Assembly (NCBI RefSeq): GCF_004117055.1
Contig: NZ_CP026363.1
Location: forward strand, 1,279,001-1,343,000
DNA length: 64,000 nucleotides
DNA from: Brevibacillus agri
Lineage (GTDB): Bacteria; Bacillota; Bacilli; Brevibacillales; Brevibacillaceae
Reading direction: 5' to 3'
Position 1 is the first letter of the stretch. Each line of letters begins with the position of its first letter. Shown piece after piece: positions 9,141 to 32,135 of the stretch. The notes under the pieces were generated by a model. That model worked only from the letters and a program-made list of their open reading frames with translations. It searched no databases and was not told the origin of the DNA. The position numbers were made by a program, and so were the translations under genes.

Positions 9141-9143
9141 TCT

Positions 9144-9728: not shown

Positions 9729-9757
9729 TTGCACCTGTCGGAAAGGCTTTATATAAT
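9729..9757 (+). promoter_or_regulatory. Promoter of the EthD/PaaI/PaaK unit
   Basis: TTGCAC (9729-9734) and TATAAT (9752-9757) are separated by 17 bases. The operator-like motif at 9771-9805 begins just downstream of the expected start point. Confidence 0.8.
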
Positions 9758-9770: not shown

Positions 9771-9805
9771 TGCGTTAAAATAACGTTATATCATTATCTC
9801 GTCAC
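9771..9805 (+). promoter_or_regulatory. Shared CGTTA/TAACG operator, site A
   Basis: CGTTA-AAA-TAACG (9773-9785) with an overlapping second CGTTA and a downstream ATATCATT block. It is nearly identical to site B before paaX over about 35 bases and shares TAACGTTATA with site C before paaA. Its position just after a consensus promoter suggests a repressor site, most likely for the local PaaX. Confidence 0.65.
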
Positions 9806-9843
9806 ATGTTTTGTGAAATAAACTGATGAAAGCAGGGATCGTA

Positions 9844-10143
9844 ATGGTGAAATTGGTGGCAATTTATCGCAAGCCTGAAGATATCGAGGCTTTTGACAAG
9901 CACTATTTCGAAGTGCACGCTGCACTCGCAGAAAAAATGCCTGGCCTGGTCAAGATGGAAGTGAGCAAGGTTTACGGCACGCCAATGGGCGAGTCCGATC
10001 TGCACCTGATCGCAGAAATGTACTTTGAAACAAAAGAGGCTCTGTTGGAAGCGTTGTCATCTCCAGAGGGACGTGCAGCAGGAAAAGACTTGCGTGGATT
10101 TGCCGGCCAAGTGGTGTCCATGCATTTTGCTGAAGTGGTCTAA
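9844..10143 (+). CDS. EthD-family small protein
   Basis: A 99-residue ferredoxin-like-fold EthD/REDY-type protein: MVKLVAIYRKPEDIEAFDKH, then EVHAALAEKMPGL and a C-terminal LRGFAGQVVSMHFAEVV. Proteins of this family recur in phenylacetate and other aromatic degradation clusters, but their activity is unsettled. ATG 9844 is preferred over 9826 because it gives the usual MVKLxAxYRKP start and has AGCAGGG upstream. It is the first gene of the long paa unit and is three bases from the PaaI gene. Confidence 0.8.
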   Translation: MVKLVAIYRKPEDIEAFDKHYFEVHAALAEKMPGLVKMEVSKVYGTPMGESDLHLIAEMYFETKEALLEALSSPEGRAAGKDLRGFAGQVVSMHFAEVV

Positions 10144-10146
10144 TCG

Positions 10147-10608
10147 ATGAGCGGGAAAACATTTGTCGACGAGCGAGAGCTTCATCGCAAGCACTACGAT
10201 GAAATTTGCGAAAAGCTGAAGCAAGACCAATTTGCCCAATTTTTAGGCGTCAAGCTGATCGAGCTTGGGGAAGGGACGGCGACAGCGGAAGTGACCGTGG
10301 CCGAACACATGCTGAACGCACACGGCACAGCGCATGGCGCGATCATTTTCTCCCTGGCTGATTTTGTTTTCGCAGCAGCCTGTAATTCCTACGGCAAAAC
10401 ATCCGTGGCGTTGTCTATGAACATCGGATTTTTGGCCGCAGCCATGAAAGGAAACCGACTGGTGGCAACTGCCACGGAGGAGAAGAAGAACAACCGGACA
10501 GCCTGGTACCGCATCCGTGTAGAAACCGAGCATGGCCTGGTAGCGACATTGGACGCCCTGGCGTATCGGAAAAACGAATACTTCGTCGCGATTGACGAAC
10601 CGAAATAA
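10147..10608 (+). CDS. paaI: Hydroxyphenylacetyl-CoA thioesterase PaaI
   Basis: This 153-residue hotdog thioesterase carries the PaaI signature NAHGTAHGAIIFSLAD, with the conserved Asp of the active site. PaaI hydrolyses hydroxylated phenylacetyl-CoA esters and so rescues CoA when the pathway stalls. Its length agrees with PaaI (about 140-150). It sits directly behind the EthD gene in the paa unit. A second, shorter hotdog protein follows. Confidence 0.88.
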   Translation: MSGKTFVDERELHRKHYDEICEKLKQDQFAQFLGVKLIELGEGTATAEVTVAEHMLNAHGTAHGAIIFSLADFVFAAACNSYGKTSVALSMNIGFLAAAMKGNRLVATATEEKKNNRTAWYRIRVETEHGLVATLDALAYRKNEYFVAIDEPK

Positions 10609-10704
10609 ACCAAATGCGAAAATCAGACAGGGAAAGGAAGCCGAATGCGAGGAGCACAGGCTCCTTTCACTGTTTCACGAGGATACTAACACGGGGGCGA
10701 GAGG

Positions 10705-11094
10705 ATGACAGTGGAAATCCGCAATCGTTTTAACCACTACCTGGGCATAGAAGTCGTACATCGAGATGAACAGGGCTGCAAGGTAGCGCTGAAAATTCGC
10801 CCTGAGCTGTTCAATAGCATCGATGGCGTCGTGCATGGAGGCGTAACGGCGACACTGGCTGATGTAGCGATGGGACATGGAGCCGCTCCCCATGTAGACG
10901 GTGTGCAACAATGCGTCACGGTAGAGAGCAAGATTCAATATTTGTACCCTGCTCGCGGAGAGCGGCTGGAAGCCGAATCGCGCGTTTTGAAGCAGGGAAA
11001 AAGCCTGATTATTATGGAAGCGCGCGTGACCTGCGACGGGAAGCTGGTTGCTTTTGCGACAGGGACGTATGCGCGGGTCAACCCGAACCGCTAA
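10705..11094 (+). CDS. Second PaaI-like hotdog thioesterase
   Basis: A 129-residue hotdog-fold protein with FNSIDGVVHGGVTATLADVAMG, the PaaI/YdiI-type core. It is only distantly similar to its neighbour PaaI, so it is a family member rather than a recent duplicate. GGGGGCGAGAGG lies before the ATG. It probably hydrolyses an acyl-CoA intermediate of the pathway; the substrate is unknown. Confidence 0.85.
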   Translation: MTVEIRNRFNHYLGIEVVHRDEQGCKVALKIRPELFNSIDGVVHGGVTATLADVAMGHGAAPHVDGVQQCVTVESKIQYLYPARGERLEAESRVLKQGKSLIIMEARVTCDGKLVAFATGTYARVNPNR

Positions 11095-11134
11095 CCGCAC
11101 TGGAGGAAATGGCTGCACAAGGAGGACGCAGAGC

Positions 11135-11917
11135 ATGGAGGAAACCGTTCGCTTTGAACGAGACGGCCACGTGGCGATCATCACGCTGAACCGTCCGGAT
11201 GAGCTGAATGCACTGAACTACGATACGCTGGAACGTCTGGGTGACCTGATCGAGCAGGTGCGGCTGGAGTCAAAAGACATCCGCGTCCTGCTGATAAAAG
11301 GCGAAGGCCGGGCGTTTTGCGCAGGGGCCGATTTGAAAGAACGCCGCACGTTAAACGAGCAGCAAGTACGGCGCAACGTCCGCAAAATTCGCGATGTGTT
11401 CACCGCGTTGGAGCGGCTGCCACAGCCGACGATTGCGCTGATTAACGGCTTTGCCTTTGGCGGAGGCTTCGAGCTGGCGCTTGCCTGCGACTTCCGCTAC
11501 GCACTGGAAGACGCCAAGATGGGGCTGACTGAAGTGAGCCTGGGCATCATTCCAGGGGCAGGGGGGACGCAGCGTTTGTCCCGGCTGATCGGTCCGGCCA
11601 AAGCGAAAGAGCTGATTTTGACGGCACGCCGCATTCAGGCGACGGAAGCCAACCGCTTAGGAATCGTGAATGGGACAGCCCGCGATCAGGAAGAATTGCA
11701 TGCGCTGGCAATGGGACTGGCCCATGAAATTCTCGGCAACGCGCCGCTCGCCGTCTATCAGGCAAAAGCCGCCATCGACCGCGGCAGCAGCGTCGATTTG
11801 CAAACAGGGCTGGATGTAGAAACGATGTGCTACGAGGTCATTATTCCAACCAAAGACCGTCTGGAGGCGCTGGAAGCGTTCCGCGAAAAGCGCAAACCTG
11901 TATTCAAGGGCGAATAA
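11135..11917 (+). CDS. Enoyl-CoA hydratase/isomerase family protein
   Basis: The 260-residue crotonase has HVAIITLNRPDELNAL, the oxyanion-hole segments GRAFCAGADLKERR and GFAFGGGFELALACD, and GIIPGAGGTQRLSRLIG with the catalytic Glu region. ATG 11135 follows AAGGAGGA at a good distance; the upstream extension to 11048 overlaps the previous gene and is rejected. It is one of three crotonases in this unit. It may act on 2,3-dehydroadipyl-CoA or provide the ring-opening hydratase step that a PaaZ fusion supplies elsewhere. That assignment is a guess. Confidence 0.85.
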   Translation: MEETVRFERDGHVAIITLNRPDELNALNYDTLERLGDLIEQVRLESKDIRVLLIKGEGRAFCAGADLKERRTLNEQQVRRNVRKIRDVFTALERLPQPTIALINGFAFGGGFELALACDFRYALEDAKMGLTEVSLGIIPGAGGTQRLSRLIGPAKAKELILTARRIQATEANRLGIVNGTARDQEELHALAMGLAHEILGNAPLAVYQAKAAIDRGSSVDLQTGLDVETMCYEVIIPTKDRLEALEAFREKRKPVFKGE

Positions 11918-11963
11918 GCAGCAAGCATGCAAAGACATAACGTAATGGAATGAGGGAAACGGC

Positions 11964-13292
11964 ATGATCTTTAATACGGAAATGGAAACGCTGTCAAGAG
12001 AAAAAATGACTCAACTCCAACTGGAGCGCTTGAAGGAAACGGCCGCACGCGTCTACGAACGAGTGCCGTTTCATAAAAAAGCGTTCGACGAAGCAGGGGT
12101 AAAACCGGAAGACATCCAGTCCATCGAAGACATCCGCAAGCTGCCGTTCATGAAAAAGACAGACCTGCGGGAAAACTACCCATTCAAGCTGTTTGCGGTA
12201 GACATGAACGAAGTCGCCCGCATCCACGGCTCGTCGGGGACAAAAGGCAAACCGACCGTTGTCGGCTACACGAAAAAAGACCTGGAAAACTGGGCGGAAA
12301 TCGTGGCCCGCGCGATCTGCTGTGCCGGCGGCCAGCCAGGGGACATTTTCCACAATGCGTACGGCTACGGCCTGTTCACAGGAGGGCTTGGCCTGCATAA
12401 TGGCATCGAGTATCTCGGCGCAGTAGCGGTTCCTGTATCCGGCGGCAACACTTCCCGCCAGATCACGCTGATCGAGGACTTCCAGCCGCGCGGAATCGCA
12501 GCGACGCCTTCCTACGTGCTCAACATCGTCGAGGAAATGAAAAAACAAGGCATCAACCCGCGGGAAACCAGCGTCAAATACGGAATTTTCGGGGCGGAAC
12601 CGTGGTCCGAGGAAATGCGCGTACAGCTTGAAGAAGCGCTCGATATTAAAGCGGTGGACATTTACGGCTTGAGCGAAGTCATGGGGCCAGGCGTATCCAT
12701 CGAGTGCCACGAAGCGCAGGATGGACTGCACATCGCAGAAGACCATTTCTACGCCGAAATTATTGATCCGAATACAGGCGAAGTGCTGCCTTACGGACAG
12801 GAAGGCGAACTTGTTTTCACCTCTTTGACCAAAGAAGCGTTCCCGGTGATCCGCTATCGCACAGGAGACATCGCTTCGCTCAATCCGGAGCCCTGTAAGT
12901 GTGGCCGCACGACCATGCGCATGTCGCGGATCAAAGGGCGCGTAGACGATATGTTGATTATTCGCGGCGTCAACGTATTCCCGACAGAGATCGAGTCTGT
13001 TTTGCTGACTTTCAACCAACTGGCACCGCACTATCAAGTTGTGATCGAACGCGACGGAGCGCTTGATCGGTTTGAAGTCCACTGCGAGCTGACACAGGAG
13101 TACGCCAGCGAGATCAGCGGAAATGAAAGCGCTGCTTTGTCGCATCTTGTAAAAGAGATTGGGCACATGATTAAAAATACGTTGGGCGTATCCGTCGTGC
13201 TGCGCATTCAACCGCCGAATTCCTTGACGCGCAGCGAAGGAAAAGCAATCCGCATCGTAGACAATCGGGGCAAGGCTCAGGCTGCGATTTAG
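11964..13292 (+). CDS. paaK: Phenylacetate-CoA ligase
   Basis: The 442-residue AMP-forming ligase activates phenylacetate to phenylacetyl-CoA, the first committed step. Visible motifs are the nucleotide-binding SSGTKGKPTVVGYTKKD near residue 93, YGLSEVMGPGVSIEC, YRTGDIASLNPEPCKCGR and the C-terminal MLIIRGVNVFPTEIE. The length matches PaaK. TGAGGGAAACGGC precedes the ATG. It lies between two crotonase genes in the paa unit. Confidence 0.95.
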   Translation: MIFNTEMETLSREKMTQLQLERLKETAARVYERVPFHKKAFDEAGVKPEDIQSIEDIRKLPFMKKTDLRENYPFKLFAVDMNEVARIHGSSGTKGKPTVVGYTKKDLENWAEIVARAICCAGGQPGDIFHNAYGYGLFTGGLGLHNGIEYLGAVAVPVSGGNTSRQITLIEDFQPRGIAATPSYVLNIVEEMKKQGINPRETSVKYGIFGAEPWSEEMRVQLEEALDIKAVDIYGLSEVMGPGVSIECHEAQDGLHIAEDHFYAEIIDPNTGEVLPYGQEGELVFTSLTKEAFPVIRYRTGDIASLNPEPCKCGRTTMRMSRIKGRVDDMLIIRGVNVFPTEIESVLLTFNQLAPHYQVVIERDGALDRFEVHCELTQEYASEISGNESAALSHLVKEIGHMIKNTLGVSVVLRIQPPNSLTRSEGKAIRIVDNRGKAQAAI

Positions 13293-13340
13293 CTTGCGAT
13301 TGTCGGATCGACTACCTGCGAAAAAGGGTGTGAAAAGCGC

Positions 13341-14114
13341 ATGGCTTACGAATATATCCTAACAGCCAGCGAGGATGGAATCGGGATTATTACGTTGAAT
13401 CGACCGAAGATTCTCAACGCACTGAATTTGCAATTAGTGGATGAGCTGGTTGCCGAGCTGGAGCGGATGGACCGGGACCCGGACATTCGCGCGATCATTT
13501 TGACGGGCAATGACAAGGCATTTGCAGCCGGAGCCGACATCAACGAGATGGCCGAGGCGTCCGCGATCGAGATCATGAAGCGGGACCAATTCGCCGTCTG
13601 GGATCGGATGTCGCTCATTTCCAAGCCGATTATCGGCGCAGTCAGCGGCTTCGTGCTCGGCGGCGGCTGCGAGCTGATGATGAACTGCGATATCGTCATC
13701 GCTTCGGAAACAGCCGTGATCGGGCAGCCGGAGATCAAGCTGGGCGTCATGCCGGGGGCAGGCGGCACGCAGCGGCTGACCCGCGCGGTCGGCTTGCGCA
13801 AGGCGATGGAAATGCTGCTCACGGGCGAGCCGATCTCGGCGAAGGAGGCGCTGCGTTACGGGCTGGTCAATCGGGTCGTGCCGGTAGAGGCGTACTTTCA
13901 GGAGGCCCGCAAGCTGGCGAAGCAAATCGCCGCACAGCCGCCGCTCGCCGTGCAGATGATTAAAAAAGCGGTCCACAAAGCAGACGATTTGCCGCTGGGA
14001 GAAGGCATGGATTACGAGCGAAACGGCTTCTATCTGCTGCTCGCCAGCGAGGATCGCAAGGAAGGCATGCAAGCTTTCCTGGAAAAGCGCAAACCCCGGT
14101 TTACGGGTAAATAG
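13341..14114 (+). CDS. paaF: 2,3-dehydroadipyl-CoA hydratase (PaaF-type)
   Basis: This 257-residue crotonase matches PaaF in pattern: GFVLGGGCELMMNCDIVIA, GQPEIKLGVMPGAGGTQRLT with the catalytic Glu, and GLVNRVVP. PaaF hydrates 2,3-dehydroadipyl-CoA to 3-hydroxyadipyl-CoA in lower phenylacetate beta-oxidation. It is nine bases before paaG. The split of roles between this gene and the crotonase at 11135 is inferred from motif similarity. Confidence 0.85.
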   Translation: MAYEYILTASEDGIGIITLNRPKILNALNLQLVDELVAELERMDRDPDIRAIILTGNDKAFAAGADINEMAEASAIEIMKRDQFAVWDRMSLISKPIIGAVSGFVLGGGCELMMNCDIVIASETAVIGQPEIKLGVMPGAGGTQRLTRAVGLRKAMEMLLTGEPISAKEALRYGLVNRVVPVEAYFQEARKLAKQIAAQPPLAVQMIKKAVHKADDLPLGEGMDYERNGFYLLLASEDRKEGMQAFLEKRKPRFTGK

Positions 14115-14123
14115 GAGGCGGCC

Positions 14124-14900
14124 ATGTACGAAACCATTCTTTATGAAGTAGCGGAAGGCGTAGCAGTCGTGACCTTGAACCGGCCGGACAAATTCAACGC
14201 TTTTACCGAGGTCATGCACAAGGAAATCGTTGCGGCGCTCAAAGAGGCGCAAAAGGATGACGCTGTGCGCTGCATTCTCCTGACGGGAGCGGGGCGGGCG
14301 TTCAATGCCGGACAGGACCTTGGCGAAGTATCGGGCGAAGACATCGACTTTGGCGGATTTTTGCGCAAGCGCTACAATCCGATGATCCTCCAGTTGCAAA
14401 AGACGGAAAAGCCGATTGTCGCGGCCGTAAACGGCGTGGCGGCAGGAGCAGGCATGAGCCTGGCGCTCGCCTGCGACATTCGCCTGGCATCGGAAAAGGC
14501 GTCTTTTGTCAACGCATTTGTCAGCATCGGGCTTGTGCCCGATTCGGGGGGCTGCTACTTCCTGCCGCGCATCGTCGGCATCGGCAAGGCGCTGGAGTTG
14601 GCGATGACTGGAGAAAAAGTATCGGCAGAGGAAGCGCTGCGCATCGGACTCGTGAACAAGGTGTATCCGGCGGAGAGCTTCATGGAAGAAGCGGTAGCCT
14701 ATGCGGAAAAACTCGCTGCCCTCCCGACGCGAGGCATTGGCCTCATCAAGCGCACGATGTACAAAGGGCTTGAAATGGGACTGGAAGAGACGTTGGACTA
14801 CGAGGCGTATGCACAGGAGGTCGCAGGCAGCACAGCGGACCACAAGGAAGGGGTCGCGGCCTTCATGGAAAAGCGCGCTCCCCGTTTTACCGGCCGTTAG
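14124..14900 (+). CDS. paaG: Ring-1,2-epoxyphenylacetyl-CoA isomerase
   Basis: The 258-residue crotonase-fold PaaG converts ring-1,2-epoxyphenylacetyl-CoA to oxepin-CoA. It has GRAFNAGQDLGEV and SIGLVPDSGGCYFLPRIVG, where the PaaG-typical DSGG replaces the GAGG of hydratases; the Asp is the PaaG catalytic residue. The start is ATG 14124 behind ATAGGAGGCGGCC. Confidence 0.93.
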   Translation: MYETILYEVAEGVAVVTLNRPDKFNAFTEVMHKEIVAALKEAQKDDAVRCILLTGAGRAFNAGQDLGEVSGEDIDFGGFLRKRYNPMILQLQKTEKPIVAAVNGVAAGAGMSLALACDIRLASEKASFVNAFVSIGLVPDSGGCYFLPRIVGIGKALELAMTGEKVSAEEALRIGLVNKVYPAESFMEEAVAYAEKLAALPTRGIGLIKRTMYKGLEMGLEETLDYEAYAQEVAGSTADHKEGVAAFMEKRAPRFTGR

Positions 14901-14923
14901 GAGCGAAGGGAGGCACAAGTCTA

Positions 14924-15781
14924 GTGAATACAAAAACAGTGGGCGTCATCGGTGCGGGAACGATGGGAGCGGGCATCGCTCTCGTCTGTATCCGCAAAGG
15001 GCATCAGGTAGTGCTGTTGGACGCCAATCAGGCGGTTTTGGACAAAGCACTCGCCTATTTGCAATCCATTTTGGGCAAGGACGTGGAAAAAGGCAAAATC
15101 AGCGAGCAGGAGCGGGCAGACACACTGGCCCGGGCAAAGCTTGTATCGGATATGGAGCAGTTGGCGCAGTGCGACATCGTCATCGAAGCAGTGCCGGAGC
15201 GCCTCGACCTGAAAAAAAGCATTTTCAGCGAGCTGAGCCGGATTTGCCGGGCAGATGCGCTGTTGCTCACCAATACTTCCTCCATTTCCATCACGCAAAT
15301 TGCCGGAGGGCTTCCCCATCCCGAGCGCATTCTCGGGTTTCATTTTTTCAACCCGGCGCCCGTCATGCCGCTGGTGGAAGTCATTCGCGGCAAAAAATCG
15401 AGCGAGGAAAACGTGCAGGCAGCGTATCGCTTCGCAACGGAGCTGGGCAAAGTGCCCGTGCTGGTGACGGATACGCCCGGCTTCATCGTCAATCGCATCG
15501 CGCGTCCGTACTACAACGAGGCGCTGCGCATCTTGGGCGACCATGTCGCAGAGGTAGAGCAGGTCGACCGGATCATGAAGCGCGCAGGCGGGTTCAAAAT
15601 GGGACCGTTTGAGCTGCAAGACATGATCGGCATCGACATCAATTTTGCCACGACCGAATCGGTCTATACCGACTTCTTCCATGAAGGACGATTTAAGCCC
15701 AGCCGGATTCAGCAGCGGATGGTGCAGGCCGGCAGCCTGGGCAGAAAGACGGGGGAAGGCTTCTATGACTATGACAAATAA
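14924..15781 (+). CDS. paaH: 3-hydroxyacyl-CoA dehydrogenase (PaaH-type)
   Basis: The 285-residue NAD-dependent enzyme has the Rossmann motif GAGTMGAG near residues 8-15, the catalytic His in FHFFNPAPVMPLVEV, the DTPGFIVNRIARPYYNEALR hinge and a C-terminal 3HCDH domain. In the pathway it oxidises 3-hydroxyadipyl-CoA to 3-oxoadipyl-CoA. The GTG start follows GAAGGGAGG. Its end overlaps the next gene by 17 bases. Confidence 0.92.
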   Translation: MNTKTVGVIGAGTMGAGIALVCIRKGHQVVLLDANQAVLDKALAYLQSILGKDVEKGKISEQERADTLARAKLVSDMEQLAQCDIVIEAVPERLDLKKSIFSELSRICRADALLLTNTSSISITQIAGGLPHPERILGFHFFNPAPVMPLVEVIRGKKSSEENVQAAYRFATELGKVPVLVTDTPGFIVNRIARPYYNEALRILGDHVAEVEQVDRIMKRAGGFKMGPFELQDMIGIDINFATTESVYTDFFHEGRFKPSRIQQRMVQAGSLGRKTGEGFYDYDK

Positions 15782-16520
15782 GGCGGTCGTGCTCGCGGGT
15801 ACAAGTCCGCTTTTTGCAGAGCTTCAACAGCTTTTTACAGAAAAAGGATACCAGGTGCTCTCTGTGGCGGAAGCGGCGGCAGAACCTGCGGCGGTTTCGC
15901 TCGCGGTAGAGGTGAGCAACCTCGACTTGCAGCAAAAGGGAGAGCTGATTCGCGCGCTGGACAGCCTGCTTGCCCCGGCAGTGCCGATCCTCACGACCTC
16001 GCTTGCGATCACGGCGACAGAAGTAGCTTCCTGGGCGCAGCATCCAAAGCGGGTGTGCGGGTTCGGGACGCTCGTGCCGCTCGCGGAGCGGGAGCTGATC
16101 GAGATCGCGCCTGCCCTGCAAACAGCGCCAGCGACGATTCAAGCGGCCGAAGTCTTTTTCCAGTCGCTCGGCAAAGAGACGGAAATCGTCGCGGACGAGG
16201 TGGGACTGGTTTTCCCGCGCATTCTCTCCCTGATTATTAACGAGGCGGCGTTCACGCTGATGGAGAAGGCGGCGACGGCCAGCGATATCGACATCGCGAT
16301 GAAAAAAGGCACCAACTATCCGTACGGACCGCTGGAATGGGCGGACCGCATCGGGCTGGACGAGATTTTTGCCATTGTCAGAGGCTTGCAGCGCGATCTG
16401 GCGGAGGAGCGTTACCGCCCGGCACCACTGCTCAGAAAGCTCGTGCTGGCAGGACGCGTCGGCGTGCGCAGCGGACAGGGCTTTTATACCTATGAGAGCA
16501 AAGTGGGTGTGAAGGCATGA
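15765..16520 (+). CDS. Degenerate 3-hydroxyacyl-CoA dehydrogenase paralog
   Basis: This 251-residue protein has the 3HCDH C-terminal domain (LSLIINEAAFTLMEKAATAS, then KKGTNYPYGPLEWADRIGLD) and ends GVRSGQGFYTYES, like PaaH-type enzymes. Its N-terminal half has lost the key residues: the GxGxxG loop is AGTSPLF, and the segment where PaaH has catalytic HFFNPA reads GFGTLVPLAE. It may therefore be a non-catalytic partner or may bind another ligand. Two ATGs (15765, 15771) follow GGGGGAAGG inside the end of paaH. Its stop overlaps the next ATG by four bases, so all three are translationally coupled. Confidence 0.85.
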   Translation: MTMTNKAVVLAGTSPLFAELQQLFTEKGYQVLSVAEAAAEPAAVSLAVEVSNLDLQQKGELIRALDSLLAPAVPILTTSLAITATEVASWAQHPKRVCGFGTLVPLAERELIEIAPALQTAPATIQAAEVFFQSLGKETEIVADEVGLVFPRILSLIINEAAFTLMEKAATASDIDIAMKKGTNYPYGPLEWADRIGLDEIFAIVRGLQRDLAEERYRPAPLLRKLVLAGRVGVRSGQGFYTYESKVGVKA

Positions 16521-17716
16521 CGATGAAAAAAAGCGACGTCTACGTAACGGCTGCCGTGCGCACGCCGATTGGCAAGCTGGGAGGCAGTCTGAAGCATACG
16601 CCGATTGATGACCTGACAGCCATCGTGCTGAACGGAGCATTGGCGCAAGCGGGACAAACCGGGGATGCTGTCGATGGCGTCATCATGGGCAATGTCATTT
16701 CGGCGGGGCCGTTTATCAATATTGCTCGCGTAGGTCTGCTCAAAGCAGGGCTGCCCGAGACGATTCCAGGGCTGACGGTGAACCGGGTGTGCGCGTCCGG
16801 GCTGGAAGCGGTCAATCTCGCTGCCCAGTCCATCCAGGCAGGACACAGCCAGGTCATGCTCGCAGGCGGAGTAGAAAATTTGACCCGTTCCCCGTACATC
16901 ATGGAAAAATTCGAGCAGCCGTACCAGCGCGGCGCCCAGGCGCTGATCGAATCGTTTGGCGGGCCGCGCTCGGCGCCTGTGTCGCTTTACGGCGATTTGA
17001 CCATGGGCGATACCGCGGAAAACGTGGCGGAGCAGTTTGGCATCAGCCGCGAGGATCAGGATTTGTTTGCCGCCGAGAGCCAGCGCCGCGCGATCGCCGC
17101 GATTGACGCAGGCTTGTTCAAGGACGAGATCATTCCCGTCCTGTTGCGCGGGAAAAAAGGGGAAGAAACGCTGTTTGACACAGATGAGTTTCCGCGCCGC
17201 GACTCCACGGTCGAGTCGCTTGCGAAGCTGCGCCCTGCCTTTCGCAAAAACGGCAGCGTGACGGCCGGCAACTCCTCAGGGATTAACGATGGCGCGGCGG
17301 CTCTTTTGCTCATGAACGAAGAAATGGTGAAGCGTACAGGAGTCGCTCCGCTTGGGCGAATCGTGCATTTTGCCTGCGCCGGAGTCGATCCGCGCATCAT
17401 GGGCATAGGACCAGTCGCAGCCATCCGCAAGCTGCTTGCCGAAGTCAGCATGACGGTAGAGGACATCGACCTGTTCGAGCTGAACGAAGCGTTTGCCTCC
17501 CAGTCGCTCGCCTGCATGCGCGAGCTGGGGCTTGATCCGGAGAAGACAAATGTAAACGGCGGAGCGATCGCCTTGGGCCATCCGCTCGGCATGAGCGGCG
17601 CCCGGCTGGCAGGCACGATCCTGTACGAGCTGCGCCGCCGCCAGAAAAAATACGGAATCGTCTCGCTGTGCATCGGCGGCGGCCAAGGGCTGGCGACGCT
17701 GGTAGAAGCGCTGTAG
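16517..17716 (+). CDS. Thiolase (acetyl-CoA acyltransferase)
   Basis: The 399-residue thiolase has the nucleophile Cys in [13 protein letters not shown] near residue 90, a second active-site region [16 protein letters not shown] and the terminal CIGGGQGLA. It may cleave 3-oxo-5,6-dehydrosuberyl-CoA or act as a general acetyl-CoA acetyltransferase. It differs from the next gene, which fits 3-oxoadipyl-CoA thiolase better. The start ATG overlaps the previous stop. Confidence 0.92.
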
Positions 17717-17752
17717 CAGAAGAGAAGTCCTACTGCATTGGAGGAGTGGAAG

Positions 17753-18952
17753 ATGAAAACAGCGGTCATTATCGATGCTGTGCGGACGCCAATCGGACGG
17801 ATTGGCGGCGCCTTGAAAGAAGTGCGCCCGGATGATCTGGGGGCATTGGTCATTCAAAAGCTGCTGGAACGAAATGACATTGATCCGAAGACGATTGATG
17901 ACGTCATTATGGGCTGCGCCAACCAGGCAGGCGAAGACAACCGCAACGTGGCGCGGATGTCTTTGCTGCTGGCCGGAGTGCCTGTCGAAGTGCCGGGCGT
18001 GACGGTCAACCGCTTGTGCGGCTCCGGCCTGGAAGCTGTCAATCAGAGCGCGAATGCGATCAAGGCAGGCGCAGGTCAGGTGTACATCGCAGGCGGGCTG
18101 GAGAGCATGACGCGCGCTCCGCTGGTGATGATGAAGCCGGGGACTGCTTTTCAGCGCGGCAATCAGCAACTGGTCGACACGACGCTCGGCTGGCGGCTGG
18201 TCAACGATAAAATGAACGAGCTGTACCCGCCGATCAGCCTTGGAGAGACGGCGGAGAAGGTCGCGGAACAGTACGGCATCAGCCGCGAAGCGCAGGACGA
18301 GTTCGCGCTGCGCAGCCAGCAAAACTACGCCACCGCGCTCGCAGAAGGAAAATGGGCGCAGGAGATCGTTCCGGTCGAGCTGAAAGGACGCAAAGGCGAT
18401 GTGACCTTGTTTGACCGCGACGAGCACGCGCGTCCGGAGACGACGATCGAGCAACTGCAAAAGCTGAAACCTGCTTTTCAGGCGAACGGCACGGTCACAG
18501 CGGGCAATTCCAGCGGCTTGAATGACGGGGCGAGCGCCCTGCTCGTCATGGAGCAGGAGGCGGCTTTGGCGGCCGGGCTGAAGCCGCGTGCGCGCATCGT
18601 CGCGTCCGCAGTGGCAGGGGTCGATCCGTCCGTGATGGGCATTGGGCCGGTTCCGGCAACGCGCAAGGCGTTGAAGCAGGCGGGCCTGTCGATTGAGCAA
18701 ATCGAACTGTTCGAATTTAACGAAGCGTTTGCCGCACAAGCAGTAGCCTGCGTGCGCGAGTTGGGGGTCAACCCAGAGCTGGTCAACGTCAACGGCGGAG
18801 CGATTGCGCTGGGCCATCCGCTCGGGGCAAGCGGCGCGCGCATCCTCACGACCTTGCTGTATGAGATGGAGCGCCGTGAAGCCCGCTATGGCCTGGCTGC
18901 GATGTGCATCGGTGTGGGCCAGGGGATTGCGACCATCATTGAGCGCGTATAG
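17753..18952 (+). CDS. paaJ: 3-oxoadipyl-CoA thiolase (PaaJ/PcaF type)
   Basis: This 399-residue thiolase contains [20 protein letters not shown], which is characteristic of 3-oxoadipyl-CoA thiolases, the nucleophile Cys in [28 protein letters not shown] and CIGVGQGIA. PaaJ releases acetyl-CoA twice in the pathway and ends in succinyl-CoA. ATG 17753 is used because GGAGGAG lies at 17740-17746, inside what would be an N-terminal extension from TTG 17738. Confidence 0.93.
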
Positions 18953-18982
18953 GCGCTTGCGGGAGACTGGAGGCGAAGGCGT

Positions 18983-19396
18983 GTGAAGGAAGGGCTGCAA
19001 CCGGGGACGACGGCCGAGTTTACGGTGACCGTCACCGAAGACATGCTGCCTAAGTTTGAAGGCGAGGTCGTGCATCCGGTCATGTCGACCGTCAGCATGA
19101 TCTACTACATGGAATGGGCAGGACGCCAGGTGATTTTGCCGTTTTTGGAAGAGGATGAGGAAGGCTCCGGCTTCGCTGTGGACATCCGCCATGTCGGCCC
19201 CGCAGTAGTCGGCCAGACAGTGACGTTCAAGGCGGTTTGCCAGGAAGTGACGAAAAAACGGGTGGTGTGCGAGGTGACAGCGGACACCGCCCGCAATCGC
19301 GTCGGGGTCGGAACGTTTACCCAGGCGATCTTCAACAAGCACGAAATCAGGCAGCGTTTTGAGGCATTGCAAGCCGAAATCAGCGCTGAAAAATAA
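18983..19396 (+). CDS. FlK-like thioesterase of hotdog fold
   Basis: The 137-residue protein resembles the fluoroacetyl-CoA-specific thioesterase (FlK-like) group: GTTAEFTVTVTEDMLPKF, HPVMSTVSMIYYMEWAGRQV and VGVGTFTQAIF. It is the third hotdog thioesterase of this transcription unit and the last gene before paaX. The family removes acyl groups from small or unusual acyl-CoAs, so a detoxifying role is plausible. GTG start behind TGGAGGCGAAGG. Confidence 0.8.
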   Translation: MKEGLQPGTTAEFTVTVTEDMLPKFEGEVVHPVMSTVSMIYYMEWAGRQVILPFLEEDEEGSGFAVDIRHVGPAVVGQTVTFKAVCQEVTKKRVVCEVTADTARNRVGVGTFTQAIFNKHEIRQRFEALQAEISAEK

Positions 19397-19411: not shown

Positions 19412-19440
19412 TTGACTCTTTTAAAATGTTTTAATATAAT
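19412..19440 (+). promoter_or_regulatory. Promoter of paaX
   Basis: TTGACT (19412-19417) and TATAAT (19435-19440) have a 17-base spacer. The operator-like site B starts at the next base. Confidence 0.82.
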
Positions 19441-19475
19441 TGCGTTAAAATAACGTAATATCATTTTGTCGTCAT
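19441..19475 (+). promoter_or_regulatory. Shared CGTTA/TAACG operator, site B
   Basis: CGTTA-AAA-TAACG lies at 19443-19455 and is followed by TAATATCATT. It covers the predicted transcription start of paaX, which suggests autorepression. It is almost identical to site A at 9771. Confidence 0.65.
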
Positions 19476-19561
19476 ACTCTCAATCGATTCACGCACTCAC
19501 TAGAGAATATGGTACAATTTCACAGCGAATAGGTATGAATCGATCTGGGGGTTGAAGAAAC

Positions 19562-20389
19562 GTGAAGCCACAATCCATGCTTTTTACGATTTACGGGGAA
19601 TACGTCCGTCATTACGGGAGCGAAATCTGGATCGGCAGCCTGACGCGGCTCATGGGAGAGTTCGGCCTGTCCGAGCCTGCTGTTCGCGCAGCGATCTCCC
19701 GGATGCTCCGCCAGGGCTGGCTGGAGTCGAGAAAAGTAGGCAACAAGAGCTATTATTCGGTATCCGAGCGTGGGAAAAAACGGCTGGAGGAAGCGGCGGC
19801 CCGCATTTATAAAGTCGAGACAGACGTGTGGGATGGCAAGTGGTGCATTGCCAGCTACAACATACCGGAGGAGCGCCGCGCTCTGCGCGACCAACTGCGC
19901 AAGGAACTGGGCTGGATGGGCTTCGGGATGCTGACGACGAGCACGTGGATCAGCCCGAACGACCTCGCCGACCGGGTAAAAGAACTGACCGAGTCGCACG
20001 AGATCACGGAGCACGTCGAAATTTTCAGCGCAGGGCACCTGGGCTGGAGCGATCCCAAGCAGTTGGTGCAGAAGTGCTGGAACATCGACGAGATCAACGC
20101 GAAGTACAAAGAATTTATTGATACGTATCGCGAGCAGTTCGAGCAGCTATCCGCGAAGATCAGCAGCGGCGAGGAAGTAGCCGACAGCCATTGCTTCGTG
20201 GAAAAGACCAAGCTCGTCCATGAATATCGCAAATTTTTGTTTATCGACCCGGACTTGCCGCAGGAACTGCTGCCGGATCTGTGGCTGGGCAAAGAAGCGG
20301 ATCAATTGTTCCAAAACTATTATCAACTTTTGAATCCAGGGGCAGTTCGATTCTTCGAGACGGTGTATGAAGCTGCACCCGTACATTAG
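19562..20389 (+). CDS. paaX: PaaX-type phenylacetate repressor
   Basis: The 275-residue regulator has the PaaX layout. An N-terminal winged helix (LFTIYGEYVRHYGSEIWIGS, EPAVRAAISRMLRQGWLES) is followed by a middle domain (YNIPEERRALRDQLRKELGW) and a C-terminal PaaX_C domain (YRKFLFIDPDLPQELLP). PaaX represses paa promoters and is released by phenylacetyl-CoA. The GTG start follows GGGGTTGAAG. It is monocistronic between its own promoter/operator and a strong terminator. Confidence 0.93.
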   Translation: MKPQSMLFTIYGEYVRHYGSEIWIGSLTRLMGEFGLSEPAVRAAISRMLRQGWLESRKVGNKSYYSVSERGKKRLEEAAARIYKVETDVWDGKWCIASYNIPEERRALRDQLRKELGWMGFGMLTTSTWISPNDLADRVKELTESHEITEHVEIFSAGHLGWSDPKQLVQKCWNIDEINAKYKEFIDTYREQFEQLSAKISSGEEVADSHCFVEKTKLVHEYRKFLFIDPDLPQELLPDLWLGKEADQLFQNYYQLLNPGAVRFFETVYEAAPVH

Positions 20390-20526: not shown

Positions 20527-21405
20527 ATGACGGAACTGTTGCAGTATGTCGCAAACGGCCTCGTCAGCGGCGGTATTTATGCGATCGTCGCGGTAGGGTT
20601 CATCACGATTTACAACGTGAGCAAAGTCATTAATCTCGCACAGGGAGAATTTTTGATGCTGGGCGGAATGGTGACGGTTGCCTTGATCGGGATGAATCTG
20701 CCGTACGGATTAGCAGCGCTGCTCGCCATCATAGCAGTGACGGCAATCGGCATCATCATGCAGAAGTATGTCATCGCTTATGTGAAAAAGGCCAGTCCTA
20801 TTAGTTTGATAATTTTGACAATAGGCATTTCCACTTTGATTCGAGGCATCGCCAGCTTTATATGGGGCAAGGATGCATTTGCGCTGGAGCCGATCACGAG
20901 CAACGAGCCGATCTCGTTCGGGGGCGTGACGATTGCTACGCAAAGCGTGTGGATTTTGGCCGCTGTCCTTATTATTCTGTTTCTTCTCTGGTACTTGATG
21001 GATAAGACGATTTTGGGGAAAAAGATCAACGCCTGTTCGGTCAATCCGATGGCTGCCCGCCTGATGGGGATTTCACCCACGAAGATGAGCATGCTCGCCT
21101 TCGCAATCAGCGGAGCCACCGGAGCGATTGCCGGAATCGTGATTGCCCCGCTTAGCGTGACCTCCTACGACATCGGGGTGCTGCTCGGAATCAAAGGATT
21201 CTCCGCAGCCATTCTGGGCGGTCTGGGCAATCCGCTCGGTGCAGCGGTTGCCGCCTTTTTGCTCGGCATCGTCGAGTCGCTCGGAGCAGGCTACGTCAGC
21301 TCCGGGATGAAGGACGCGATCGCGTTTCTCGTTCTGATCGGCATGCTGCTGGTGAAGCCATCCGGCCTCTTTGGAGAACGCAGCGTAGGAAAAGGAGGGC
21401 TGTAG
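20527..21405 (+). CDS. LIV-type ABC transporter permease, LivH family
   Basis: The 292-residue membrane protein has the LivH pattern: LVSGGIYAIVAVGFITIYNV, INLAQGEFLMLGG and GATGAIAGIVIAPL, ending GLFGERSVGKGGL. With LivM it forms the channel of a branched-chain amino acid-type importer. AAAGGGGGT lies upstream. Its location inside the phenylacetate block suggests that the cargo is phenylacetate or a related aromatic acid, as for other HAAT transporters in aromatic gene clusters. That is inference. Confidence 0.93.
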   Translation: MTELLQYVANGLVSGGIYAIVAVGFITIYNVSKVINLAQGEFLMLGGMVTVALIGMNLPYGLAALLAIIAVTAIGIIMQKYVIAYVKKASPISLIILTIGISTLIRGIASFIWGKDAFALEPITSNEPISFGGVTIATQSVWILAAVLIILFLLWYLMDKTILGKKINACSVNPMAARLMGISPTKMSMLAFAISGATGAIAGIVIAPLSVTSYDIGVLLGIKGFSAAILGGLGNPLGAAVAAFLLGIVESLGAGYVSSGMKDAIAFLVLIGMLLVKPSGLFGERSVGKGGL

Positions 21406-22434
21406 ATGAAGCGGTTGTTGACGAAATGGGGAAAAGGCTTCGGCATTTATCTCGCCTTGATGGTGGTGTTCCCGTTCGTGATGCCGGATGAGTATTACCG
21501 CTCCGTCGGGATTATTATCGGGCTGCATGCTATCGTGACGATCGGGCTTTGTCTGGTGATGGGGCTTGCCGGACAGATTTCGCTCGGACAAGCAGCCTTC
21601 TGGGGAATCGGTGCATACACGTCCGCCGTTTTGACCACGAAGTACGGCCTGTCGCCGCTCGTCGGCCTCGTCGCCTCCGCAATCATTCCCGGCCTGTTCG
21701 CCTTTATTCTCGGCAGGGCGATCGCCGGGCTGCAAGGCTACTACCTCGCCATGGCGACCTTGGCCTTTGGCTACATCGTCCAGATCGGCATTACCGAGTG
21801 GGAGCCGGTCACTGGCGGGGCGAGCGGGATGATTAGCATTCCGCAGGTGCCGCTGTTCGGCGGCAGCGAGCTGTCCATGTACTACCTGATCTGGGCGATC
21901 GTCACCTGTGTGCTGTTATTCTCGCTCAACCTTATGCATTCGCGGGTCGGCAGAGCTTTTCGCGCGATTCACAAAAGCGAGATTGCCGCAACCTCGATGG
22001 GCGTTGACGTGCGCAAGTTCAAGCTGAACGCCTTCGTGGTCAGCGGGATGTTCGCCGGAATTTCCGGCGGCTTGTACGCCCACTACATGGGGATTCTCGA
22101 TCCGCAGCCGTTCGGACTGCACGAATCGATCAAATTTCTCACCATGGTCGTCATCGGGGGGATGACGAGTATATGGGGGGCGCTGATCGGCACCGTACTG
22201 ATCGGCTTTATCAGCGAAGGATTGATTCTGCTCAGCGAAGTCATTCCAGGCTTGCAGGGCGACGTCGATACGATCGTCTTCGGCGGCATCCTCGTCTTGA
22301 TCGTCATGTTCATGCCAGAGGGACTTGTGCCGCGGATTCGTTCCGCCTATGAAAAAGCGCAAGCGAAAAAGGCAAAAGAACTGGCCGCGAAGACGCAGTC
22401 TGGCGAGCGGGTAGAAAGGAAGGCGGCAACATGA
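21406..22434 (+). CDS. LIV-type ABC transporter permease, LivM family
   Basis: A 342-residue permease with VMGLAGQISLGQAAFWGIGA, EPVTGGASGMISIP and VIGGMTSIWGALIGT, all typical of LivM. The C-terminus is long and lysine-rich (YEKAQAKKAKELAAK). Its ATG follows the livH-type stop without a gap, with AAAAGGAGGG just upstream. The stop overlaps the next ATG. Confidence 0.93.
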   Translation: MKRLLTKWGKGFGIYLALMVVFPFVMPDEYYRSVGIIIGLHAIVTIGLCLVMGLAGQISLGQAAFWGIGAYTSAVLTTKYGLSPLVGLVASAIIPGLFAFILGRAIAGLQGYYLAMATLAFGYIVQIGITEWEPVTGGASGMISIPQVPLFGGSELSMYYLIWAIVTCVLLFSLNLMHSRVGRAFRAIHKSEIAATSMGVDVRKFKLNAFVVSGMFAGISGGLYAHYMGILDPQPFGLHESIKFLTMVVIGGMTSIWGALIGTVLIGFISEGLILLSEVIPGLQGDVDTIVFGGILVLIVMFMPEGLVPRIRSAYEKAQAKKAKELAAKTQSGERVERKAAT

Positions 22435-23198
22435 CAACTCTGTTGGAAGTGCAGGAGCTGTCCCGCGATTTTGGCGGGGTACGAGCTGTCAACCAGGTGA
22501 ACTTTCAAGTGCGGGAAGGCGAGATTTTGGCGCTGATCGGCCCGAACGGCGCGGGGAAAAGCACCGTGCTGAACATGGTGTCGGGCGTCATTCCTCCCTC
22601 CGAAGGCGAGATTCGCTTCCAGAGCAAGCCGATGACGCGAGTCCCCGGCTACGAATACGCCGGATTGGGGATCACCCGCACGTTTCAAAACCTCCAGACG
22701 TTTGACGATATGACCGTACTCGAAAACGTCATGGTCGGGATGCATACGAAGACGCGCTCCAGCCTGTTTGCCTGCGGCATGAACCTCGGCAGCGCGAAAA
22801 GAGAAGAGAAAATGATGGAACAAAAGGCGCACGCCTGGCTCGGGCGTGTCGGACTGGCGCCGGAATCCCAGCAGCTTGCGGGAAGCTTGCCGTACGGAAA
22901 GCTGAGGCTGATGGAGATTGCCCGGGCGATGGTCGCCGGACCGAAGCTGCTCTTGCTCGACGAGCCGGCGGCAGGCCTGAACCATACCGAGACGGCGGAG
23001 ATGAGCCGGATGTTTTGCGAGATTCGCGACAGCGGCACGGCGATTTTGCTGGTAGAGCATGACATGGACATGATTATGACGATCGCAGACCGCATCGTCG
23101 TTCTCGATCAGGGCACGAAAATTGCGGAAGGAACCCCGCGCGAAATCCAGGAGAACCCGCGCGTCATCGCGGCCTATTTGGGAACGGAAGAAGAGTAG
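22431..23198 (+). CDS. LIV-type ABC transporter ATPase, LivG family
   Basis: The 255-residue ATPase has Walker A GPNGAGKST, the LivG-type TRTFQNLQTF (Q-loop), the signature region GSLPYGKLRLMEIAR, Walker B LLLLDEPAAGLN and the H-loop EHDMDMI. It couples ATP hydrolysis to import together with the LivF-type subunit encoded next. Confidence 0.93.
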   Translation: MTTLLEVQELSRDFGGVRAVNQVNFQVREGEILALIGPNGAGKSTVLNMVSGVIPPSEGEIRFQSKPMTRVPGYEYAGLGITRTFQNLQTFDDMTVLENVMVGMHTKTRSSLFACGMNLGSAKREEKMMEQKAHAWLGRVGLAPESQQLAGSLPYGKLRLMEIARAMVAGPKLLLLDEPAAGLNHTETAEMSRMFCEIRDSGTAILLVEHDMDMIMTIADRIVVLDQGTKIAEGTPREIQENPRVIAAYLGTEEE

Positions 23199-23209
23199 GG
23201 GGAAAACAG

Positions 23210-23953
23210 ATGGAGAAAGCGATTTTAAAAGTGGACAACATCACGGCTCGCTACGGTCCCGTAGAAGTGTTGCACGGCATTACGATGCAAGTCAACGAAG
23301 GGGAGATCGTCTCGCTGCTCGGCGCAAACGGCGCAGGCAAAACGACGTTGTTGAACTGCATCTGCGGGCTGCACAGCGCGAAGGAAGGGAAAATCTGGTT
23401 CCGCGATACAGACATTACGGGGATTCCGGCCGAGCTTGTGGTGCCGCGCGGGATGGCGCACGTGCCGGAGCGCAGGCAAATTTTTTCCACGCTGACCGTA
23501 GAGGACAACTTGTGGCTCGGCGCTTCTCATCGCATGCCGAAGACGAGCAAAAAAGAAATCGCCAAAGAAATGCAGACAGTTTACGAGCGCTTTCCGATCC
23601 TGGCGGAGCGGAAGTGGCAACTAGGGGGAACGCTTTCAGGGGGGCAGCAGCAAATGCTTGCGATTGGCCGGGCGCTTTTATCCAGACCGCAGCTTTTGCT
23701 GCTGGACGAGCCGTCGCTTGGCCTCGCTCCGCTGATTGCCAAGGAAATTTTGACGATCGTGCAGGAGATTCGCTCCCAGTGGGGCACGACGGTGTTGCTG
23801 GTCGAGCAAAACGCTCGCGCTGCGCTGGCCATCTCCGACAGAGCCTACGTCCTGAGTACGGGAGAGGTCATGCTCGAAGGCAGCGCTGAAGAGATCAGTA
23901 ACGATCCGCGAGTGCAATCTGCTTATTTGGGTCACTCCCATCAGGCAGTTTGA
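23210..23953 (+). CDS. LIV-type ABC transporter ATPase, LivF family
   Basis: The 247-residue ATPase has Walker A GANGAGKTT, HVPERRQIFSTLTVEDNL (LivF pattern), signature LSGGQQQMLAIGRAL, Walker B LLLLDEPSLGLAP and VLLVEQNARAAL. It forms a heterodimer with the preceding ATPase. Eleven bases separate the two genes. Confidence 0.93.
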   Translation: MEKAILKVDNITARYGPVEVLHGITMQVNEGEIVSLLGANGAGKTTLLNCICGLHSAKEGKIWFRDTDITGIPAELVVPRGMAHVPERRQIFSTLTVEDNLWLGASHRMPKTSKKEIAKEMQTVYERFPILAERKWQLGGTLSGGQQQMLAIGRALLSRPQLLLLDEPSLGLAPLIAKEILTIVQEIRSQWGTTVLLVEQNARAALAISDRAYVLSTGEVMLEGSAEEISNDPRVQSAYLGHSHQAV

Positions 23954-23989
23954 CATTATAGAAGATAGATAATCGAAGGGGGTTTTACG

Positions 23990-25189
23990 ATGAAAAAACG
24001 AACGTTTGGCAAGTGGCTGTACCCGGTTGCGATTGCTTCTCTCGTCATGCTCAGCGCCTGTGGCGGCGGCGGGCAGCAAGCACAACAATCCGGCGGCGGG
24101 CAGACTGCAGCGACAGAGAGCAAAGAACCGATCAAGGTAGGGGCGATTTTCTCCCTGACTGGTCCGAACAGCCCGCTCGGCGTACCGGAAAAGCAGGCAG
24201 TTGAGCTGTTGGTCAAGGAAATCAACGGAGCAGGCGGTGTGGATGGCCGTCCGGTAGAGGTTGTGTTCGAAGACGACAAGTCGGATAACACCGAAGCGGT
24301 CAAAGCGATCAAGAAGCTCGTTTCCAAAGAAAAAGTAGTCGCTGTGCTCGGCTCGTCCGGCAGCGGCCCTTCCCTGGGGATGGCGGAGTTTGCCGCAGCC
24401 GAGAAGCTGCCGCTGATCTCGATGGCAGCCGCGGACCAGATTACCAACCCTGTGCGCGCAGGCATTTTCAAAACACCGCATACCGATGTGCACGGCACGA
24501 AGCGCATTTTTAAATATTTGAAAGAAAAAGGCATTACGAAAATCGCAACGCTCAACGACAGCAATCCGTACGGTAGCGGCTGGACGACCCAACTGCAAAA
24601 ATACGCGCCGGAGTACGGCATTACGATTGTGGCAGAAGAGAAGTACGGGACGAAGGACCCGTCCATGAGCTCCCAGTTGACCAAAATCAAAGGCACGGAT
24701 GCACAGGCGCTGATCGTGGCAGGTACCAACCCTGGCCCGGCGACGATTGTGAAGGAAGCGAAGCAGTTGAACCTCGGCATTCCGATCATCAGCAGCCACG
24801 GGTCGGCGAACAGCAAGTTTCTTGAGCTGGTTGGCGACGCGGGCGAAGGCGTCCTGATGGTAGCGGGCAAGCTGCTCGTGCCCGATCAGGTCGATGCGAA
24901 CGACCCGCAAGCGGCTATCATCAAAAAATTCACAGAAGGCTACCAGACGGCGTACAACACGCAGCCGGACGGCTTTGCCGGATACGGCTACGACGGCTTG
25001 AACCTGCTCGTGGAAGGCTTGAAGCAGGCAGGCGGCGATGCTTCCAAGCTGGGTGAAGTTCTGGAAAAAGTGAAGTACGTAGGCGTTACCGGGGAATTTA
25101 CGTTCTCGGCAGAAGATCACAACGGCCTGACGGAAGATAGCATGATTATGGTCGAAGTGAAGGATGGCAAATTCCAGATTGTAAAGTAG
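23990..25189 (+). CDS. LIV-type substrate-binding lipoprotein
   Basis: This 399-residue lipoprotein (lipobox LSAC, Cys at about residue 24) is followed by a low-complexity Gly/Gln linker and a type-1 periplasmic-binding fold: IKVGAIFSLTGPNSPLGVPE, INGAGGVDGRPVEVVFEDDK and VVAVLGSSGSGPSLGMAEFA. The binding residue pattern (Ser/Ser after VLGSS) is as in HAAT receptors. It should capture the solute outside the membrane for the four preceding proteins. GAAGGGGGT precedes the ATG. Confidence 0.92.
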   Translation: MKKRTFGKWLYPVAIASLVMLSACGGGGQQAQQSGGGQTAATESKEPIKVGAIFSLTGPNSPLGVPEKQAVELLVKEINGAGGVDGRPVEVVFEDDKSDNTEAVKAIKKLVSKEKVVAVLGSSGSGPSLGMAEFAAAEKLPLISMAAADQITNPVRAGIFKTPHTDVHGTKRIFKYLKEKGITKIATLNDSNPYGSGWTTQLQKYAPEYGITIVAEEKYGTKDPSMSSQLTKIKGTDAQALIVAGTNPGPATIVKEAKQLNLGIPIISSHGSANSKFLELVGDAGEGVLMVAGKLLVPDQVDANDPQAAIIKKFTEGYQTAYNTQPDGFAGYGYDGLNLLVEGLKQAGGDASKLGEVLEKVKYVGVTGEFTFSAEDHNGLTEDSMIMVEVKDGKFQIVK

Positions 25190-26141: not shown

Positions 26142-26200
26142 TTGCAAAAAAGTATGACGTTATGTTATTATAACGTTATAAAAACGTATTATAAAATTAT
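26142..26200 (+). promoter_or_regulatory. paaA promoter region with operator site C
   Basis: TTGCAA at 26142-26147 is a plausible -35; TTATTA (26165-26170) 17 bases on, or TATTAT (26187-26192) with another -35, could be the -10. CGTTA (26158-26162), TAACG (26171-26175) and an overlapping CGTTA lie here, including the perfect palindrome TTATAACGTTATAA. It shares TAACGTTATA with site A. The exact -10 is uncertain. Confidence 0.55.
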
Positions 26201-27203: not shown

Positions 27204-27207
27204 GTGA

Positions 27208-27561
27208 ATGAATATGAACAACGAAACAGAAGCCAAAAACAACTTTTTCATATACGAGGTATTCAGCCAAAAAAGCGTAAACTCTTCGTTTGTCCATCAG
27301 TTCAGCCTTCTGGCTCCGAACAAGGAAGTGGCTTTGGCGATGGCGCGCGAGAACTTCTTGCGCCGCGAGACTTGTTTTAATCTCTGGGTCGTCAAGCGCG
27401 ACGATATTTACGGCTTGTCGCCGGAGGAGCGCCCGTTTTTGGAGCGGATCGACAACAAGAGCTACCGGGAGACGAGAGGCTACGGGGACTTGCAGGCGAG
27501 ATGGCGCCATCACCGGGAGAAGTACGAAGAAAAACAGAAGCATGCGGAAAGCGGCAGCTAA
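27208..27561 (+). CDS. paaB: Phenylacetyl-CoA epoxidase subunit PaaB
   Basis: The 117-residue PaaB has the family pattern YEVFSQKSVNSSFVHQFSLL, APNKEVALAMARENFLRR and CFNLWVVKRDDIYGLSPEER. It bridges PaaAC dimers in the complex. The first ATG is four bases after paaA; a second ATG at 27214 is possible. Confidence 0.94.
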   Translation: MNMNNETEAKNNFFIYEVFSQKSVNSSFVHQFSLLAPNKEVALAMARENFLRRETCFNLWVVKRDDIYGLSPEERPFLERIDNKSYRETRGYGDLQARWRHHREKYEEKQKHAESGS

Positions 27562-27578
27562 GCAGGAGGGAAACAATC

Positions 27579-28412: not shown

Positions 28413-28427
28413 AAAGGGGTGATCTGC

Positions 28428-28931: not shown

Positions 28932-28956
28932 AGAGAGATTGAGAGGAGCGATAGTC

Positions 28957-31625: not shown

Positions 31626-31659
31626 AATTATAGATAGATTATTCGAATGAGGTGTAGAA

Positions 31660-32118: not shown

Positions 32119-32135
32119 GGCGTGCGCTTTTCAAG

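Follow-up and report, generated by a model that had tools for sequence, protein, structure and literature searches.

The window analysed here is a stretch of 64,000 nucleotides from Brevibacillus agri (contig NZ_CP026363.1, positions 1,279,001 to 1,343,000 of the forward strand), contained in a 5.37-Mb genome of one contig. According to a Pfam scan of the region's 30 ORFs, a paa cluster occupies positions 9826-30399 and encodes an EthD-like protein, thioesterases, enoyl-CoA hydratases, PaaK, two 3-hydroxyacyl-CoA dehydrogenases and two thiolases, as well as PaaX, an ABC transporter, a chemotaxis protein, PaaABCD and an aldehyde dehydrogenase. The cluster is flanked by cytochrome oxidase subunit III/IV genes (8514-9461) on one side and by CtaG, DUF420, UbiA-type and CtaA-type genes (30735-34213) on the other, as if it had been inserted into a cytochrome oxidase cluster. 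Its features are as follows.

9729..9757, plus strand: promoter-like hexamers TTGCAC-N17-TATAAT of the ethD/paaK unit, read from the sequence, with similar hexamers in relatives.
9772..9808, plus strand: candidate operator A with cores GCGT/ACGT/CGTCA, placed by alignment; E 8.3e-4 with a model built only on paaX promoters.
9826..19396, plus strand: ethD/paaK unit, comprising genes for the EthD-like protein, thioesterases, enoyl-CoA hydratases, PaaK, dehydrogenases, thiolases and an FlK-like thioesterase.
11964-13292, plus strand: PaaK, by equivalog TIGR02155.
19412..19440, plus strand: paaX promoter TTGACT-N17-TATAAT, read from the sequence.
19442..19478, plus strand: candidate operator B, placed by alignment; E 9.2e-7 with the paaX-only model, and found in relatives.
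19562..20389, plus strand: paaX, encoding a predicted repressor of 275 aa, by the PaaX N, central and C domains (Pfam), TIGR02277 and PDB 8a39.
20527..25189, plus strand: branched-chain-type ABC transporter genes and a substrate-binding protein, by Pfam.
26142..26171, plus strand: promoter-like TTGCAA-N18-TATTAT with a TG before the -10 box, upstream of paaA, read from the sequence, with similar stretches in relatives.
26151..26187, minus strand: candidate operator C, an inverted copy that brackets the -10 box, placed by alignment; matched by models R1 and R2 (see below) and found in relatives.
26235..30399, plus strand: paaABCD and aldehyde dehydrogenase unit, by Pfam.

The genes at 9826..19396 are probably co-transcribed. 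The transporter genes at 20527..25189 have no operator match of their own in the genome searches with R1 and R2 and could possibly be transcribed from the promoter of paaX; between them and paaX stands a terminator-like hairpin (20410-20431), so that co-transcription is only a possibility. The start of the ethD-like gene may be the ATG at 9844 rather than 9826, as matching MVKL residues open the Paenibacillus copies.

PaaX is the sole DNA-binding regulator that the Pfam scan recognises among the 30 ORFs, and its gene is placed between two paa units. The protein contains all three PaaX domains (Pfam PaaX/PaaX_M/PaaX_C), scores 290.9 bits against the TIGR02277 equivalog model, above the curated cut-off of 264.55, matches PDB 8a39 with E 8.2e-46 and is 97% identical to the PaaX of Brevibacillus gelatini.

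An earlier note on this DNA had proposed one operator motif with shared CGTTA/TAACG half-sites at 9771, 19441 and 26158, including the promoter of paaX itself. All three sites exist, with starts that alignment moves to 9772, 19442 and 26151, and paaX does carry at its own promoter (B) the same element as the other paa promoters. Sites A and B are indeed near-identical (31/37 positions) and both stand behind promoter-like hexamers; B follows its -10 box directly, as had been said of both, and A starts 14 nt after its own. The stretch TAACGTTATA that C had been said to share is present at 26171-26180 and forms only part of a match of 37 bases on the minus strand, which has 24 identities with A and 25 with B, as compared with 22 at the best other place in the window when both strands are ranked by the lower of the two identities. 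Owing to the partly palindromic nature of the element, C can also be aligned on the plus strand, with 22-24 identities. The half-sites belong to a longer element with three ACGT-like cores, spaced at offsets of 0, 11 and about 27; the order is mirrored in C, whose cores (ACGT) are found at 26157, 26173 and 26184. The idea of a single motif holds, on firmer ground than had been stated and with two details changed: the element is longer and has three cores, and C is inverted and overlaps its promoter, bracketing the -10 box of paaA instead of following it.

Short forms of the motif carry little information of their own. The loose core RCGTTNNNNNAACGY with at most one mismatch occurs 10 times in the window, 9.1 being expected, and is therefore not rare, while the exact core RCGTTNNNNNAACGT occurs six times in the genome, at the three sites and at three places elsewhere, at least two of which are inside long reading frames. 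The RCGTTNNNNNAACGT core was rejected as the whole operator, its one-mismatch form being at chance level in the window and its reversed control commoner in the genome. By comparison, a search of the window for a 24-mer from A, allowing three mismatches, returns only A and B, a result equalled by 0/100 shuffles. A looser three-core pattern finds A, B, C and one further place, 50941, in the window, and has a mean of 0.37 and a largest count of 3 in 60 resampled windows.

Two profile models were used for genome-wide searches: R1, made from the paaX-upstream sites of 16 relatives with the window sequence excluded, and R2, made from 52 sites of relatives. The scans scored the best 21 or 150 first-look candidates per genome, and the E-values are rough owing to shortened calibrations. 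In the 5.37-Mb genome R1 gives four matches at E<=10 among the best 150 of 1122 first-look candidates, all of them at A, B and C, with E-values of 9.2e-7 for B, 8.3e-4 for A, and 0.0066 (plus strand) and 0.020 (minus strand) for C. Since R1 was trained on paaX promoters alone, its finding of A and C is an independent prediction. R2 gives five matches at E<=1 among the best-scoring first-look candidates, again all at A, B and C, with 33-42 bits at these sites and E 3.7e-10 for C on the minus strand.

The likeness of the three sites could also be ascribed to shared promoter elements, AT-rich composition or recent duplication, given that the sites touch -10 boxes, that the left flank of B overlaps TATAAT, that the loose core alone is at chance level and that the three-core pattern also matches at 50941, outside the paa cluster. 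This explanation is extremely improbable in view of the genome search: the full element stands at three paa promoters and, among the best 150 of 1122 candidates, nowhere else at E<=10, so that, as the search proposed in the earlier note had been meant to establish, it is not common in unrelated promoters. Moreover, C is inverted relative to its promoter, a polarity kept in relatives and in most of the site-bearing paaA regions of other families, and resampled promoter regions yield the three-core pattern in just 0.05-0.3% of trials, for a pattern that was written after seeing the sites.

Conservation was followed in 27 named loci, reduced to 25 by leaving out L057, a Chromatiales bin whose PaaX is 32% identical and in which the R2 search finds no match, and L058, in which paaX is cut by a contig end and whose genome has no R2 match at E<=0.1. 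The pattern is present upstream of paaX in 16/25 of these relatives and absent in nine (Aneurinibacillus, Tumebacillus and Paenibacillus loci and one Brevibacillus metagenome bin). With a matrix refined on the same sites, the element is found upstream of paaA in 20/20 loci containing paaA and at ethD in 16 of the 20 loci with ethD, and all three promoters retain it in the Brevibacillus relatives. The four loci without an ethD site are from Paenibacillus, and in them ethD and paaX follow paa genes in a single row; the same four genomes have a site (E 2.6e-7 to 0.034) whose coordinates fit a place some 20 kb upstream of paaX, with a second, weak match elsewhere in one of the genomes. In L306, from a Paenibacillus alvei genome, a PaaX-type site at 1500-1560, far upstream of paaX, overlaps a promoter-like stretch and precedes a gene that resembles, judged by eye, that of an ABC substrate-binding protein. 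In three loci (L210, L213 and L221) AAGCGCTTTCTT stands just before the paaA promoter, a sequence which we take to resemble a catabolite (cre) site.

The 52 trained sites also bear on how much of the element belongs to PaaX. Core 1 (RCGT) is conserved in 50/52 and core 2 (ACGY) in 51/52, while the letters of core 3 are more variable and it is off its usual place by one to three bases in 8/52. It is conceivable, though rather unlikely, that PaaX binds only the 15-bp inverted repeat RCGTT-N5-AACGT, which contains the two best conserved cores, and that the third, with its greater variation and its displacements, belongs to the promoter or to another factor. However, most sites have a GTYA-like third element at nearly fixed spacing, lying upstream at paaA and towards the gene at ethD and paaX, which is unlike a promoter element. 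The preferred reading is the full three-core element.

Between operator B and paaX, at 19479-19561, there is a second conserved block that contains TATGGTACAATTTCACAGC, possibly a second promoter. A similar sequence, GTGATACAATTTGAC, precedes paaX in four Paenibacillus loci that are devoid of operator B, and an inverted repeat, ATCGATTCA/TGAATCGAT, adjoins the ribosome-binding site of paaX. RNAalifold predicts no structure for the leader RNA from operator B to paaX; in a stem drawn by hand 91.8% of cells are paired and two pairs show changes on both sides, and shuffles lend it modest support. Rfam at gathering scores has no match in 9000-31000.

Across genomes the element follows PaaX, both its presence and its clade, and not the paa pathway. 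Within the own family, R2 at E<=1e-3 finds a site in 28/29 PaaX-positive and 1/10 PaaX-negative genomes, many of the 29 having given training sites. Among 299 Bacilli genomes at the same threshold the element is found in 45/78 with paaA and PaaX, 0/41 with paaA only, 0/6 with PaaX only and 2/174 with neither. At E<=0.05 the corresponding figures are 53/78, 1/41, 0/6 and 29/174, so that weak matches are no evidence. Outside the own family the site is found in 30/62 genomes with paaA and PaaX as against 0/41 with paaA only (27/59 against 0/41 without three training genomes). These counts are inflated, as the genomes are related by descent and hence not independent, and the repeated exchange of the regulator described below is the better argument.

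The surroundings of paaA were examined in 96 of 119 regions, with 16 of the own family and seven without a listed position left out. A site at E<=0.01 is present in 31 of the 60 regions from PaaX-positive genomes and in 1/36 from PaaX-negative ones; three of the 31 (L202, L210 and L213) gave training sites, and without them the count is 28/57. In a tree of PaaX proteins, in which clade I (the Brevibacillus type) is separate from clade II and from paralogue clades, the site is found in these 96 regions at E<=0.01 with 19/19 of clade I (16/16 untrained), 12/33 of those labelled clade II, 0/8 of those labelled paralogue-only and 1/36 without PaaX. The label of one genome, G201, as clade II came from a crude rule based on letters, and in the tree it falls among the paralogues; with this corrected, clade II has 32 regions instead of 33 and paralogue-only 9 instead of 8, and the conclusions stay the same. 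Thirteen of the 21 labelled clade II regions without a match at E<=0.01 come from one genus (g48), in which paaA appears to be internal to an operon, and the residues of the recognition helix, inspected by eye, do not separate the clade II proteins with a site from those without. Paralogous PaaX clades are represented in G031, G038, G061, G084, G102, G105, G119, G125, G128, G185, G201, G234 and G244.

Several individual genomes are instructive. In G072, G087 and G127 the site is at paaA, separated from the sole PaaX match by 0.36-2.6 Mb of the contig, and in G058 PaaX is on another contig altogether; a site at paaA with paaX so remote points to PaaX acting in trans, which fits these genomes best. 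G269 (L192) has a weak site at paaA (E 0.0059) and no detected PaaX, while three genomes of its genus have PaaX, and G038 has a paralogue-type PaaX and no site. G002 and G202 possess neither gene and yet match at E<=1e-3; the 3-kb locus around the G002 match (E 6.3e-4) contains no homologue of the window's paa genes. An additional R2 match in G021 (C1:1243643-1243680, E 0.0027) is far from the paa cluster.

The same regions allow a second regulator to be considered. The sites might be bound by a TetR-type PaaR or by another trans regulator instead of PaaX, as the letters of the ACGTT half-site resemble the Thermus PaaR consensus AACnAACGTTnGTT (PMC6651687) and TetR genes are common in the paa regions of Bacilli; from its place and fold family the gene in question is probably PaaR, no model matching it. 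The distribution of the two regulators makes this very improbable. The TetR gene is present in 32/36 regions without PaaX and in 9/60 with PaaX, and it occurs together with the site in 0/96. In the nine genomes with both, the extracted PaaX copies are of paralogue or distant clades (for G244 one of three matches was extracted), and the eight paralogue-clade genomes in which the paralogue is the only extracted copy and the region was examined have the TetR gene and no PaaX site there. The best match of the window genome to that TetR protein is 29% identical over nearly its full length, and a search of the window for a PaaR-like TetR protein returns a single ORF with 52 bits, which lies beyond the paa cluster at about 57.9 kb.

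Sites A, B and C are thus best explained as operators of the PaaX encoded at 19562-20389, a reading which, on the sequence evidence, we put at a probability of about 0.86. The occurrence of shared sites together with PaaX suggests that PaaX would repress the paa promoters, and the autoregulated PaaX regulon predicted in the earlier note, with an operator unlike that of E. coli, gains support from the R1 matches in the genome, from conservation in Brevibacillus, from the tracking with PaaX and from the lack of a model match in the E. coli paa region. Each operator would be one asymmetric element of about 37-39 bp, composed of two ACGT-type half-sites in inverted orientation, spaced by 11 bp, and a third, CGTYATA-like half-site about 16 bp further on. 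In the ethD/paaK and paaX promoters the element follows the -10 box in forward orientation, and in the paaA promoter it runs over the -10 box in the opposite orientation; PaaX bound to it would block RNA polymerase. From the positions of the sites, PaaX would exclude the polymerase from the promoter at B and C, and at A would prevent the open complex from forming or halt early elongation. Once PaaK, encoded in the unit behind A, has made phenylacetyl-CoA, PaaX would release the DNA, leading to joint expression of the enzyme units and paaX and perhaps also of the transporter genes downstream of it; both the inducer and the repression are carried over here by analogy with E. coli.

This provides a candidate operator for PaaX in Bacilli that can be tested. 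The DNA sites help to separate PaaX proper from its look-alike paralogues and from the TetR type, and the short natural promoters named here could serve as phenylacetyl-CoA sensors in Gram-positive hosts. A described PaaX operator for Bacilli was not found in the literature searched (subscription papers and RegPrecise being outside its scope), nor, with subscription papers again outside the scope, was a paper naming both Brevibacillus and PaaX. The distribution of PaaX and PaaR, Bacilli included, is described in PMC13186573, in the main text of which the terms 'operator' and 'binding site' are absent.

Control of an aromatic catabolic cluster by aryl-CoA is likewise exerted by MbdR and other aryl-CoA responsive repressors (PMC4424350), and MbdR differs in being another repressor of another pathway. 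The paa genes are also repressed by the TetR-family PaaR of Thermus thermophilus (TTHA0973) and Burkholderia cenocepacia (PMC6651687; PMC9493321). The Thermus PaaR site contains AACGTT (PMC6651687), but PaaR is unrelated to PaaX in protein family and, in the 96 Bacilli regions, the TetR gene never accompanies the site.

The closest counterpart is PaaX of E. coli, a homologous repressor, as the match to PDB 8a39 shows, with a similar set of targets (Pa, Pz and Px) that includes its own gene. It controls the paaA operon, another paa unit and paaX, with steric hindrance at Px and autorepression, through the site TGATTC(N27)GAATCA (PMC9493321), and its binding to DNA is inhibited by phenylacetyl-CoA and not by phenylacetate (PMC4498308); according to PMC9493321 the structure of a PaaX-operator complex is not known. 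The kind of system in Brevibacillus, an autorepressed PaaX, is therefore familiar, while the letters of its operator were found in no paper of the literature searched. As had been predicted, they differ from those of E. coli: sites A-C have ACGT cores and lack the E. coli-type TGATTC-N27-GAATCA. Conversely, the E. coli operator was rejected as a match to the model, R2 reaching at most 4.5 bits in the K-12 paa region with filters off, against 33-42 at A, B and C. In K-12, Pa has the site with one change at N27, while a spacing of N28 suits Pz better and one of N2 or N31 suits Px. The outer arms at paaA, TATRACG-N25-CGTWATA, span 39 bp, the same as TGATTC-N27-GAATCA, an equality that serves only as a hypothesis because it depends on one clear E. 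coli site (Pa). It may tentatively be suggested, at less than even odds, that the PaaX operator of Bacilli is an asymmetric array of three half-sites (offsets 0, 11 and about 27) that probably takes more than one PaaX dimer and has its polarity fixed by the type of promoter. On the same speculative footing, a 39-bp E. coli-like geometry may have been kept across phyla with changed letters, and regulator-operator modules, either a PaaX box or a TetR regulator, may have been swapped on the same pathway.
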